Positions 1 through 3,788 of a stretch of 15,913 bases of DNA are shown piece by piece. The translations under genes were made by a program, and so were the position numbers. Below the pieces are notes generated by a model. It was not told the DNA's origin and did no database searches. It was given only the letters and a program-made list of their open reading frames with translations. Where the stretch lies: positions 1-15,913 of the forward strand of contig QLUP01000011.1 of NCBI GenBank assembly GCA_018725485.1. The letters are read 5' to 3'. The stretch is from Candidatus Lithacetigena glycinireducens (GTDB lineage: Bacteria > Coprothermobacterota > HKB111). Positions within the stretch are counted from its first letter, which is position 1, and each line of letters starts with the position of its first letter.

Positions 1-779
1 CTTATTGACGTAGAACCAGTAATTAGTTCCTTTTTAAGCTTACTTAATGCCCGCCTTTGCAGTCGGGAAACCTGTACCTGGGAAACTCCTAATTTTTTAG
101 CAATGTCGGCTTGTGGTAGATGATCATAAAATCTCCACTCAATAACTCGTCTTTCGTTACCGGGAAGTTTCTCCAGGGCTGCTTTTAAAAATATCCTTTC
201 ATCTTCATTTTCCTTATCGTAGGAATTAAAGGAAGCTATTTCATTAAATGGTCTTGATTTTTCATCATCATCATTAAATGTGGCATCCAGAGAAAGGGCA
301 TCATAAGAAGCTCCTGCTGACATAGCTTCCATTGCCTCTTCTTCGGTAATCCCAAGTTTAAGGGCTATTTCGCTATACTTGGGAGTTCTTCCTAACTCCT
401 GGGATAACTGGTCAACAGATTTTTGTATTTTTAAACCTAACTCCTGCAATCTTCTCGGTACTTTAATATCCCAGCTTTTATCCCTGAGATACCTTTTCAT
501 TTCACCCAGTATGGTAGGAATAGCATAAGAAAGAAAATCTTTTTTTAAAGAAGGGTCAAACCTCTTAATTGCCTGAACTAAACCGAGAAAACCAACCTGT
601 TCCAGATCTTCCTTATTTATATAGGATTTGAATTTACGGGCTAAATAATAGACAATTCCTCCATAATGGCGGACTAAATCCTCCAGAATGCTCTCATTTT
701 TTTCTTTTTTATAGCTGAGCAGTAGCCTTTCTATATCTTCTTTACTTTTCTGCTCTACCTCACCTCGAAGAAGCAGCAT
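1..779 (-). CDS. SigB/SigF-family alternative RNA polymerase sigma factor (3' end cut by window edge)
   Basis: An uninterrupted frame of 259 codons runs from an ATG at 777-779 off the window edge. Bacillus SigB has about 262 residues, so only a few are probably missing. Region 2 is clear: residues 58-76 carry the core-binding and -10 segment (EDLEQVGFLGLVQAIKRFD), and residues 93-110 (EMKRYLRDKSWDIKVPRR) match the RDK-W and VPRR signature of SigB/SigF/SigG factors. Region 3 follows at about 118-160. Region 4 ends in a helix-turn-helix at about 221-245 (ADIAKKLGVSQVQVSRLQRR). The start lies inside the anti-sigma gene (20-base overlap), so translation is probably coupled; no strong ribosome binding site precedes it. 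As the last visible gene of the operon it is probably co-made with its regulator. Family membership is secure. Whether it acts in stress response or sporulation is inference; the YtxG/YtxH neighbours favour stress. Confidence 0.93.
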   Translation of the reverse strand, partial: MLLLRGEVEQKSKEDIERLLLSYKKEKNESILEDLVRHYGGIVYYLARKFKSYINKEDLEQVGFLGLVQAIKRFDPSLKKDFLSYAIPTILGEMKRYLRDKSWDIKVPRRLQELGLKIQKSVDQLSQELGRTPKYSEIALKLGITEEEAMEAMSAGASYDALSLDATFNDDDEKSRPFNEIASFNSYDKENEDERIFLKAALEKLPGNERRVIEWRFYDHLPQADIAKKLGVSQVQVSRLQRRALSKLKKELITGSTSI

Positions 780-1128
780 GTTTAACTATTCTTACCATTA
801 CCCCCCTTCTGGTATTTGTTCTTTCAACATTATCGGTTAAACAATTAAGTAAAATATTGGTAATATCTTGATCTAAAAAGCATGAATACCTCCGGGGAAT
901 TTCCATTAATAAGTAAAACACTTCGTCTTCCATTTCATAGGAGATTTTTATAGTTCCACGCCTTACTTCAGTATTAAGTAAGCAACCCATTAACTCAGCC
1001 ACGGTAAACTTCAAATCTTCAACTTCTTCAAACCCAAGTCCTGCTTGAGTTGCTGCACCCGAAACAAATAACCTGAGCTGGGTTAGAAATGATTCTTCCA
1101 CGGGGAGAATCAAAAAAGCCTTACTCAC
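760..1128 (-). CDS. RsbW/SpoIIAB-like anti-sigma factor with a degenerate ATP-binding site
   Basis: This 122-residue protein would bind and inhibit the sigma factor encoded next to it. It starts at GTG (1126-1128), overlapping the YtxH stop as GTGA. Residues about 14-51 (LTQLRLFVSGAATQAGLGFE, then EVEDLKFTVAELMGCLLN) line up with the N-terminal half of RsbW, including the EDLK helix. The GHKL ATPase hallmarks are eroded. The N-box E-x-x-x-N has E45 but C49 in place of Asn. No D-x-G-x-G motif is present; that stretch reads MEIPRRYSCFLDQD. The glycine-rich lid before the final helix is replaced by DITNI, and the rest of that helix (LLNCLTDNV) is retained. RsbW and SpoIIAB use ATP to phosphorylate an anti-anti-sigma partner and switch partners. 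This version probably cannot, so release of the sigma factor would need another mechanism. Homology is inferred by eye. Confidence 0.8.
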   Translation of the reverse strand: MSKAFLILPVEESFLTQLRLFVSGAATQAGLGFEEVEDLKFTVAELMGCLLNTEVRRGTIKISYEMEDEVFYLLMEIPRRYSCFLDQDITNILLNCLTDNVERTNTRRGVMVRIVKHAASSR

Positions 1129-1355
1129 TTTTCTTCTTCCAGTATTATTTCTTCTTCGGTCTTTAATATTTCACCGATAACTTTTTTTAGCTCATCAACC
1201 TTTTTAACTAACTCGTTCTTAGCAATCTTGCTGGTTTGAACGATTTTTTTCCTGGTATCTTCTCCAGTTTCAGGAGCATATAATACTCCAAATACTCCTC
1301 CAATTACCAATCCAGCAACAAACCACCCTAAATTGTTAAATATTCTGTCAGACAT
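1125..1355 (-). CDS. YtxH-family small membrane stress protein
   Basis: A 76-residue protein with one N-terminal membrane segment (about residues 8-26) followed by the YtxH hallmark YAPETGEDTRKK (about 26-37), and then a charged helix predicted to be coiled-coil to the end. Family members are membrane-anchored proteins of unknown biochemical role; in Bacillus subtilis ytxH belongs to a stress operon transcribed by SigB and SigH. The start is supported by a strong ribosome binding site (CCTCCT on the plus strand at 1364-1369, eight bases before the ATG) that lies within the last codons of the upstream gene. It overlaps the anti-sigma start by four bases, so the two are probably coupled. Its place beside a SigB-type sigma factor fits a stress regulon. 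Confidence 0.88.
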   Translation of the reverse strand: MSDRIFNNLGWFVAGLVIGGVFGVLYAPETGEDTRKKIVQTSKIAKNELVKKVDELKKVIGEILKTEEEIILEEEK

Positions 1356-1359
1356 TTAA

Positions 1360-1686
1360 TTAACCTCCTTTCTTTTTAATAATTGAAGATACTTTTTTAC
1401 TTATATCTACTACCATTTTCATAGTGCTCAAAAAATATAAAGCACCTGTTACCTGAGGTAATAGATGGGTAGAAACTCTTACTTTATTCAATATTACCCT
1501 GGAATCACGTAAAAGCCCTTTTCCCTCTCTGATTAGTTCCTTACCTTCGTTTTCTACGAAGTAGCTTAATTCTCTGCTGATTTTATCTATCTTTTTTGTC
1601 AATATAAAAGTACTCGAGAGAAATACAATCAGCATAATCCATAAGGGAATTCCTACAAAAACAATTAACACCCAGTTATCTACCAT
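1360..1686 (-). CDS. DUF948/YtxG-like membrane protein
   Basis: A 108-residue protein with a single N-terminal membrane helix (about residues 5-30), then an amphipathic, probably coiled-coil region (about 31-72), a second moderately hydrophobic stretch (about 77-95) and a lysine-rich tail (IIKKKGG). This layout and its position immediately before a YtxH gene match YtxG of Bacillus (DUF948), whose biochemical function is unknown. The ATG at 1684-1686 has a strong AGGAGG ribosome binding site (plus-strand 1695-1700, eight bases upstream). Its last codons form the ribosome binding site of the YtxH gene. The gene starts inside the end of the RseC-like gene (11-base overlap). Assignment rests mainly on architecture and context, so it is less secure than that of YtxH. 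Confidence 0.75.
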   Translation of the reverse strand: MVDNWVLIVFVGIPLWIMLIVFLSSTFILTKKIDKISRELSYFVENEGKELIREGKGLLRDSRVILNKVRVSTHLLPQVTGALYFLSTMKMVVDISKKVSSIIKKKGG

Positions 1687-2101
1687 TACTAAAACCTCCT
1701 TTCATTAACTCTACCACTTTAGGTTGAAAGGAAATAAATTTCCTCAAAATATAAACACAGCTAATACCTATTATAAAACCTAATGTTCCACCAAGCAAGT
1801 AGCCGGTATTGGCATTGTCATTCAAATTACCCCCAATTACCACCCCTGTTATTAAAGCAACCGTAGGTATTAAAAAAACGATAGTAGATAACATAAATAC
1901 AGATTGGTCCGGAATATACACAACCACCCTATCGCCAACAGAAGCATTTTCAAATAAATCATCAGGTAGGTTGGCTTTCAAATTGGGTGTTCTTTTACTG
2001 CAACCCCATCCACAACTCTGGCAATTTGAAGATTCCCCAGGAAAGCATTTTACTTCCACTTCTTTATTATTAATAGAAACTACCTGTCCAGATCTATACA
2101 T
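1676..2101 (-). CDS. RseC/MucC-like membrane protein with N-terminal cysteine cluster
   Basis: A 141-residue protein. A small N-terminal beta-rich domain (about 1-65) holds four cysteines at about 19, 27, 30 and 34 (CFPGESSNCQSCGWGCSK), a plausible iron-sulfur or redox site. Two membrane helices follow (about 68-90 and 102-121), then a short basic tail. The order (cysteine domain, conserved GDRVVV strand, paired helices) is that of the RseC/MucC family, which acts in envelope-stress signalling and SoxR reduction in proteobacteria and accompanies Rnf complexes elsewhere. No Rnf gene is visible here; instead it leads an operon with YtxG/YtxH and a sigma/anti-sigma pair, suggesting redox or envelope sensing (inference). 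The ATG has no Shine-Dalgarno sequence, and the nearest candidate promoter would leave a leader of only about ten bases. Confidence 0.82.
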   Translation of the reverse strand: MYRSGQVVSINNKEVEVKCFPGESSNCQSCGWGCSKRTPNLKANLPDDLFENASVGDRVVVYIPDQSVFMLSTIVFLIPTVALITGVVIGGNLNDNANTGYLLGGTLGFIIGISCVYILRKFISFQPKVVELMKGGFSNGR

Positions 2102-2321: not shown

Positions 2322-3146
2322 CTATCTATTGCCATTCTTACCCCTATAAGGTAGGGGTATATACTGTACTGAGGGTTTACTTGAAGGCTGAGGGTACAAA
2401 TCCATAAGTTTATAAATATTAACCGGCATTTCTTTTTTTACCGGTAAACCAAGTCTTGTAGCATCTTCAAAGGTAATTGGGTGGTCGTGAGTCCACCTTC
2501 CTTCAGTCAGTATTTTAGCTAAATCTCTCGCTTTTTCTTCTCCTACCTTATCTTCGAGAAGGTGATGAACTTTTGTTTCTACCTGGTATAAGGCTTTCCG
2601 GGCTATATCTGCAAGTATGAGAATCTTGTCTGATATATCCTGCGGTTCTTTCAAATCCAGAACTCTTACCAGGGAAGCTGCCGGATAGTTACCAATCTGT
2701 GGGTCCACAGGCCCAAGAACTGCGTTTTCGTCCATCACTATTTCATCAGCAGCCAGGGCAATCATAGTTCCCCCCGACATAGCATAGTGAGTAATATACA
2801 TCGTTACTTTAGCAGGATGTTTTTTTAAAGCAAAGGCTATTTGTTCTGAAGCCAGAGTAATTCCTCCAGGTGTATGTAATATTAAATCTATGGGCATTTC
2901 GGGAGAAGTCAGCCTTATAGCTTTTAGTATCTGTTCGGAATCTTCAATGCTAATGTACCTGAAAACTGGAATACCTAAAAAACTAACAGCTTCCTGCCGG
3001 TGTATCATAACGATTACCCGGGAATTTCTTTCTTTTTCTAACTTGCTTATAAAATTAAATCTTCTAACAGATAGAATGCTTTTTTGCATTACCGGGATAA
3101 AGAAACTGATAATTAGGATTGCCAAAAATATCATATAAAAATCCAT
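2322..3146 (-). CDS. Membrane-anchored SDH-family (ClpP-fold) serine protease
   Basis: A 274-residue protein with an N-terminal membrane anchor (about 1-21) and a ClpP/crotonase-fold protease domain of the SDH proteinase family (PF01972), related to SppA. Family landmarks are LILHTPGG (about 88-95), HYAMSGGTMIALAADEIV (about 120-137) with the probable nucleophile Ser124, and the AVLGPVDPQIG segment after it. The C-terminal part has the RWTHDHPIT motif (about 218-226) typical of the family. The substrate is unknown; a role in membrane protein or signal-peptide turnover is inferred from the fold and anchor. The start is firm: AGGAGG (plus-strand 3153-3158) lies six bases before the ATG, inside the end of the rhomboid gene. 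It is the last gene of the housekeeping block; no convincing terminator hairpin follows it. Confidence 0.88.
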   Translation of the reverse strand: MDFYMIFLAILIISFFIPVMQKSILSVRRFNFISKLEKERNSRVIVMIHRQEAVSFLGIPVFRYISIEDSEQILKAIRLTSPEMPIDLILHTPGGITLASEQIAFALKKHPAKVTMYITHYAMSGGTMIALAADEIVMDENAVLGPVDPQIGNYPAASLVRVLDLKEPQDISDKILILADIARKALYQVETKVHHLLEDKVGEEKARDLAKILTEGRWTHDHPITFEDATRLGLPVKKEMPVNIYKLMDLYPQPSSKPSVQYIPLPYRGKNGNR

Positions 3147-3149
3147 AAG

Positions 3150-3788
3150 TTACCTCCTCTGAGAATTTTTTATTGGTAAAGCCCAGATATATCCAGCTAT
3201 GAAACCTCCCACATGTGCCCACCAGGCCACACCCCCTTCAGAAACTACACCCAAACTGGAAAAGCCATATATCAATTGAATAATGAACCATAAACCCAGA
3301 AAGATATAGGCTGGTAGAGCAACCACTGTAATAAACAATCCTAGTGGTACCAAGGTAAGGATTTTAGCCCTGGGGAAAAGCACAAAATACGAGCCTATAA
3401 CTCCTGAAATAGCACCACTTGCTCCTATAAGCGGTAGGTTGGAGTTTAAATCTAAAACTGTATGTGTCATAGTTGCCACTACCCCGGCAGTCAAAAACAT
3501 AACTATAAAGTTTATATGCCCTAATCTATCTTCCACATTGTCTCCAAAAACCCAGAGAAAAAGCATATTTCCCAGAAGATGTATAAAACCTCCATGAATA
3601 AACATGGAACTAAACAGGTCTAATAGAGAGATATTTGAGGGGATAAATCCGAACTCCATAATAAAAGCCATATATTCTTTAGATGAAAGGGAAAGCATAA
3701 AAAGATAAACAGCAATATTTAAAAACATTAGACCGATATTAAAAATACAAAATGTTTTTGCTGGTATATTATCTTTTAAAGGAATCAT
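3150..3788 (-). CDS. Rhomboid-family intramembrane serine protease
   Basis: A 212-residue protein with at least six hydrophobic segments, the usual bacterial rhomboid core. Signature elements are FIHGGFIHLLGNMLFLW (about 63-79, with His70 and Asn74), the nucleophile motif GASGAISG (122-129, Ser124) and AHVGGFIAGY (191-200, His192), giving a complete Ser-His dyad. Rhomboids cleave transmembrane substrates within the bilayer; the substrate here cannot be read from sequence. It begins directly after the RlmB stop codon, with only a weak ribosome binding site, so it probably relies on coupling. Three bases separate its stop from the SDH-family protease start, so the two membrane proteases are likely co-expressed. 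Confidence 0.93.
   Translation of the reverse strand: MIPLKDNIPAKTFCIFNIGLMFLNIAVYLFMLSLSSKEYMAFIMEFGFIPSNISLLDLFSSMFIHGGFIHLLGNMLFLWVFGDNVEDRLGHINFIVMFLTAGVVATMTHTVLDLNSNLPLIGASGAISGVIGSYFVLFPRAKILTLVPLGLFITVVALPAYIFLGLWFIIQLIYGFSSLGVVSEGGVAWWAHVGGFIAGYIWALPIKNSQRR

Follow-up and report, generated by a model that had tools for sequence, protein, structure and literature searches.

The sigma factor operon and its surroundings

The window, that is, the whole stretch of 15,913 nucleotides analysed here, is one complete contig of a source genome of 1.24 Mb, which is divided into 204 contigs and is 83% complete. An apparent operon of five genes is located at the beginning of the window on the reverse strand. 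Neighbouring genes in this operon overlap or are separated by at most 4 bases. The first gene (1676..2101) encodes an RseC/MucC-family membrane protein with a cysteine cluster (PF04246, E 1.6e-17). The next gene (1360..1686) encodes a 108-residue membrane protein, which was assigned to the place of DUF948 (YtxG-like) by its position and appearance only, since the Pfam profile search gave no DUF948 match for it. A YtxH-family small membrane protein (PF12732, E 5.1e-13) is encoded at 1125..1355, and its gene overlaps by 4 nt the gene of the anti-sigma protein (760..1128). The latter gene has a GTG start and encodes a pocketless RsbW/SpoIIAB-like protein of 122 amino acids, which was characterized with NCBIfam profiles, an AlphaFold model and a residue table. 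It in turn overlaps by 20 nt the gene of a SigB/SigF/SigG-family sigma factor (3..779), the reading frame of which reaches the contig edge and is cut there.

The same order of five genes was found in G001, a genome of the same genus. The sigma ortholog of G001 is intact (255 aa, 90% identity), is followed by alaS, and scored 248.7 bits against the SigB/F/G model TIGR02980, the cut-off of which is 234.35. A preliminary description of this DNA had placed the anti-sigma gene directly before a SigB/SigF-type sigma gene, and both the overlap and the score of the G001 ortholog agree with this arrangement, which is that of the RsbW/SpoIIAB family.

A non-coding stretch of about 170 nt (2105-2270) lies upstream of the rseC gene. 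It occurs as a single copy in the genome and contains a perfect 8-nt inverted repeat (2210-2217/2231-2238) together with an outer 9-nt one (2122-2130/2242-2250); a search against Rfam gave no match. A SigB-like promoter, GTTCAA-N15-GGGTAG, was spotted by eye upstream of rseC. This candidate was dropped because it is missing from G001, the upstream DNA of which contains TTGACA-N18-TATACT instead. Two proteases are encoded at 2322-3788, directly upstream of the operon and in the same orientation. One is a serine proteinase of the ClpP-like SDH type (PF01972), the other a rhomboid protease (PF01694). It is possible that these proteases are linked to the turnover of the anti-sigma protein.

Fold and nucleotide pocket of the anti-sigma protein

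The profile searches proposed in the preliminary description were carried out. The match to Pfam HATPase_c_2 was weak (E 0.03). The NCBIfam RsbW models NF003144 and TIGR01924 matched well above chance, with E-values of 1.9e-8 (33.9 bits) and 2e-7 (30.5 bits), scores that lie far below the equivalog cut-offs for the serine kinase (145 and 155.05, respectively). Since the Pfam match alone was too weak for classification, the family was decided by the NCBIfam models and by structure. The AlphaFold model, which was built from a 37-row alignment, had a pLDDT of 91.2 and a pTM of 0.84. Its best structural match was UsfX (8ih8_D; Z 16.6), with 118 of the 122 residues aligned, and RsbW (6m37_C) matched with a Z of 16.4 over 112 residues. 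Foldseek gave an E-value of 3.5e-9 against 6m37_A, and the histidine kinases in the structure search were well below the UsfX and RsbW matches. The predicted structure thus has the GHKL (Bergerat-type) fold of RsbW/SpoIIAB across the whole domain. Judging from this model, the anti-sigma protein is a true RsbW/SpoIIAB relative across nearly its full length. The kinship stated in the preliminary description is therefore upheld by the NF003144 match, but its restriction to the N-terminal half is not, as shown by the extent of the UsfX alignment. No relative of the protein was found in the viral contigs searched.

The pocket residues were compared in a table with Bacillus RsbW as the reference. 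The N-box asparagine (N53 of RsbW) is replaced by Cys49, D84 and G86 of the G1 box are replaced by Ile and Arg, and the ATP lid GLGLYL is replaced by DITNIL. The N-box Asn, the G1 Asp/Gly and the GLGL lid of the RsbW serine kinase are thus all lost, as had been read from the letters beforehand (Cys49, no D-x-G-x-G, no glycine-rich lid). In the model, the strand 70-78 passes straight to two short helices (79-86 and 88-97), which leave no space for a G1 loop and a lid. The residues R23, D42, K44 and E49 of RsbW are kept as R19, D38, K40 and E45. In the crystal structure of the RsbV/RsbW complex, these residues of RsbW touch RsbV (PMC7340262).

Conservation of the pocket loss and occurrence of STAS proteins

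Conservation within the phylum was analysed in a sample of nine genomes. The anti-sigma ortholog of G001 shows 85% identity, identical pocket losses and an intact frame. Between these two genomes of one genus, which are the only ones in the comparison, the anti-sigma gene has a dN/dS of 0.21. Its dN (0.070) is lower than those of the RseC, DUF948-position and YtxH genes (0.099-0.108); the value for the sigma gene is 0.043. The gene is under purifying selection within the genus. An ortholog with the same losses and a dN/dS of this size indicate that the pocket loss is not simple decay.

Five genomes from a second family carry a homolog of 110-116 aa, the gene of which immediately precedes the sigma gene, overlaps it by about 4 nt and has aspS upstream. 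It matched an RsbW-family profile with a probability of 92% (E 6.9e-7), and its pocket is lost too. The survey of homologues that had been suggested beforehand thus showed the loss in both genomes of the genus and in the second family. In this family, the equivalent of R23 is Q or E and that of E49 is K; the interface may therefore be drifting there. No RseC, YtxH or DUF948 gene was found at the locus of the second family. In total, a homolog lies upstream of the sigma gene in seven of the nine genomes. A 125-aa ORF upstream of the sigma gene in a third family was left uncounted, since its profile probability of 0.1% did not establish homology. In the sigma tree, the sigma factor of the window falls into a group with Bacillus SigB that lacks firm support, and the analysis neither demonstrated nor rejected that the sigma genes in the two families share one origin (p-AU 0.27).

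The preliminary description had seen no anti-anti-sigma gene upstream in the operon. Indeed, no STAS gene lies upstream of the anti-sigma gene at the locus, and profile searches with STAS (PF01740) and STAS_2 (PF13466) detected none in any of the nine phylum genomes, while 10 and 7 of 14 genomes, respectively, were positive in the control searches. Since the window genome is incomplete, the absence of STAS from it leans on its relatives, several of which are 91-99% complete; it is also worth noting that profile searches can overlook very divergent STAS proteins. Neither the STAS anti-anti-sigma partner of the RsbW serine kinase nor an RsfA/RsfB-type STAS antagonist, as in the RsbW1/UsfX type, was thus detected in the nine genomes. 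No SpoIIE phosphatase was found over the cut-off in the phylum genomes. Three of them gave weak matches, of which the one inspected (L033) is by eye an ordinary PP2C phosphatase.

The other proteins of the phylum above the HATPase_c_2 cut-off are encoded in iron-sulfur/hydrogenase-type loci, and the N-box and G1 motifs are kept in the four that were read. The pocket loss is therefore specific to the sigma-linked protein. Two proteins from the genus of the window (L028:495-1403 and L029:1465-2379) have a CBS-like N-terminal region fused to HATPase_c_2 with intact motifs, and their genes adjoin a ferredoxin/hydrogenase-like gene.

To survey relatives in other phyla, named genomes were scanned using the alignment of sigma factors. 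Among the best 80 loci, which are mostly Bacillaceae SigB, an RsbW-like ORF lies directly upstream of the sigma gene in 79. Both the N-box Asn and the lid are lost in 10 of these 79: five Dormibacterota-type MAGs (two named so, three joined to them by the tree), three Coriobacteriia/Actinobacteria, one MAG labelled Proteobacteria and one labelled Acidobacteriota. No STAS gene was found at any of the 10 pocketless loci, in contrast to 67 of the 69 others. As for the two exceptions, L078 is at a contig edge, and the STAS gene of L113 was found just upstream by a genome search. Genome-wide, no STAS protein was found in the five Dormibacterota-type genomes, whereas the other five genomes with pocketless loci have 4-10 matches elsewhere; in a larger mixed group containing Dormibacterota genomes, 20 of 41 were positive. 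The association between pocket loss and STAS loss is not separable from kinship, since the well-supported branches offer no more than 2 independent pairs. It is broken by G023, G127 and G024, which have His, Cys and Thr, respectively, at the Asn position and keep the adjoining STAS gene. These sequences suggest that the pocket may have been lost before STAS, within a deep tree that is poorly resolved and offers few independent comparisons. In the RsbW of a Lysinibacillus MAG (L096:3529-4002), the N-box Asn is Tyr, and the lid, a G1-like motif and the adjoining STAS gene are kept.

The sigma loci L002, L003, L046, L053, L094 and L123, from unrelated phyla, are flanked by aspS or DUF948/YtxH genes and by alaS. 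This gene order suggests that the neighbourhood of aspS or DUF948/YtxH, sigma and alaS may be old and conserved.

Mode of action and comparison with known systems

The nucleotide-binding motifs are missing, related genomes share their loss, and no STAS gene was detected locally or genome-wide. Classical partner switching of the RsbW type therefore looks excluded, and, since neither a STAS antagonist nor a clear SpoIIE was detected, the sigma factor would not be released in this way. We consider it probable that the protein is an anti-sigma factor of the RsbW/UsfX type which no longer binds ATP or acts as a kinase, that it most likely binds and inhibits the sigma factor stoichiometrically, and that classical partner switching does not free the sigma factor. 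The fold, the motif loss, the conserved adjacency, the purifying selection within the genus and the lack of detectable STAS were observed by computation; sigma binding and inhibition are what we infer from them. The anti-sigma protein would be co-produced with the sigma factor by means of the gene overlap and would hold it without ATP. The activity of the sigma factor would then more likely depend on how much of each coupled product is made relative to the other, on whether the inhibitor is degraded or unfolds, or on a non-STAS partner. A modelling study of the Bacillus network reportedly deals with the effect that the relative synthesis of operon partners has on SigB output (PMC5207722), so that control by ratio without a switch seems possible.

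There are other possible interpretations of these results. The anti-sigma factor could be switchable and be released by an adjoining non-STAS partner, for example the YtxH, DUF948-like or RseC protein, which would sense a membrane or redox signal, as the preliminary description had proposed. In the two genomes of the genus, all five genes have the same orientation and either overlap or almost adjoin, and YtxH or DUF948-type genes repeatedly adjoin related sigma loci. However, the second family has aspS alone upstream, so that these neighbours cannot be a general release device. DUF948/YtxH genes are also present at L003 and L113, which keep STAS; their linkage is thus not tied to pocket loss, and they are no substitute for STAS. 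The cysteines 49, 83 and 95 are conserved only within the genus, and a redox role is therefore not general. This proposal is thus unlikely, and the earlier interpretation as a whole is partly supported. UsfX, by the title of Malik et al. 2008 (cited in PMC7693655), reportedly has a novel nucleotide binding and hydrolysis activity, and a non-canonical nucleotide binding of this sort might persist in the present protein. This is very unlikely, because the N-box Asn, the G1 Asp/Gly and the entire lid are replaced, a helix follows directly on the strand at the place of the G1 loop and lid in the predicted structure, and in M. smegmatis kinase activity is found only in RsbW2, which retains the N, G1 and G2 motifs (PMC7693655).

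It is also conceivable that the protein is not an inhibitor but a bound chaperone or stabilising subunit, which the sigma factor needs for folding or activity. The kept partner face, the missing switching apparatus and the co-production suggested by the gene overlap would fit this. No such case is found for the RsbW family in the literature cited here, in which one mycobacterial homolog without kinase activity, RsbW1, is an inhibitor and the other, RsbW3, antagonizes RsbW1 (PMC7693655, PMC10950880), and we regard this role as quite improbable. Finally, the successive loss of the pocket, of STAS and then of surface residues in the second family, in small genomes, might be taken to mean that the protein is decaying and leaves the sigma factor without regulation. 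Given the dN/dS within the genus, the intact frame in both of its genomes and the persistence of a homolog upstream of the sigma gene in seven of the nine phylum genomes, this can hardly be the case.

The preferred reading, a stoichiometric inhibitor without ATP, can be tentatively extended. It is possible that an ancestral STAS/RsbW/sigma switch was reduced to two proteins in several deep lineages, among them Coprothermobacterota, Dormibacterota and Coriobacteriia, and that the pocketless inhibitor releases its sigma factor without ATP or STAS by a mechanism that would be undescribed. RsbW-type anti-sigma factors are textbook switches operated by ATP and phosphorylation, and a conserved version without the pocket and without a detectable antagonist raises the question of how the sigma factor is controlled. 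The STAS-less Dormibacterota and the relatives that have lost the Asn and kept STAS suggest a testable order, the pocket first and STAS later. Should the second family prove to be Coprothermobacter, which is a cultivated genus, a living organism would be available for this question.

The anti-sigma protein shares with SpoIIAB (1l0o, 1til, 1thn), the anti-SigF factor of endospore formers, the fold (Z about 15) and the place in the operon beside a SigF-type sigma gene, but SpoIIAB works with ATP and the STAS protein SpoIIAA. With Bacillus RsbW (6m36/6m37), it shares the fold, the place before a SigB-type sigma gene and R23/D42/K44/E49; unlike it, this anti-SigB serine kinase has the N-box, G1, the lid and an adjoining RsbV. 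A pocketless or kinase-less RsbW as such is already known from mycobacterial RsbW1/UsfX, and the distinct feature of the present case is that no STAS antagonist was detected either: release of mycobacterial SigF needs the STAS proteins RsfA and RsfB (PMC7693655, PMC10950880), which mycobacteria retain, and M. smegmatis also has RsbW2 as a separate kinase. This precedent of an anti-sigma factor that is not a kinase had been left unnamed in the preliminary description. RsbW1 of M. smegmatis lacks kinase activity, is placed in a cluster of other kinase-less anti-sigma factors, and both binds SigF and inhibits it (PMC7693655). The sequence of UsfX has no N-box Asn, G1 or lid, and the entry 8jzt is titled as a complex of SigF and its anti-sigma factor. 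Like mycobacterial RsbW1/UsfX (8ih8, 8jzt), and as that type is defined (PMC7693655), the protein of the window has an RsbW fold without the N, G1 and G2 motifs of canonical ATP binding and kinase activity, and is encoded directly before a SigF-type sigma gene.
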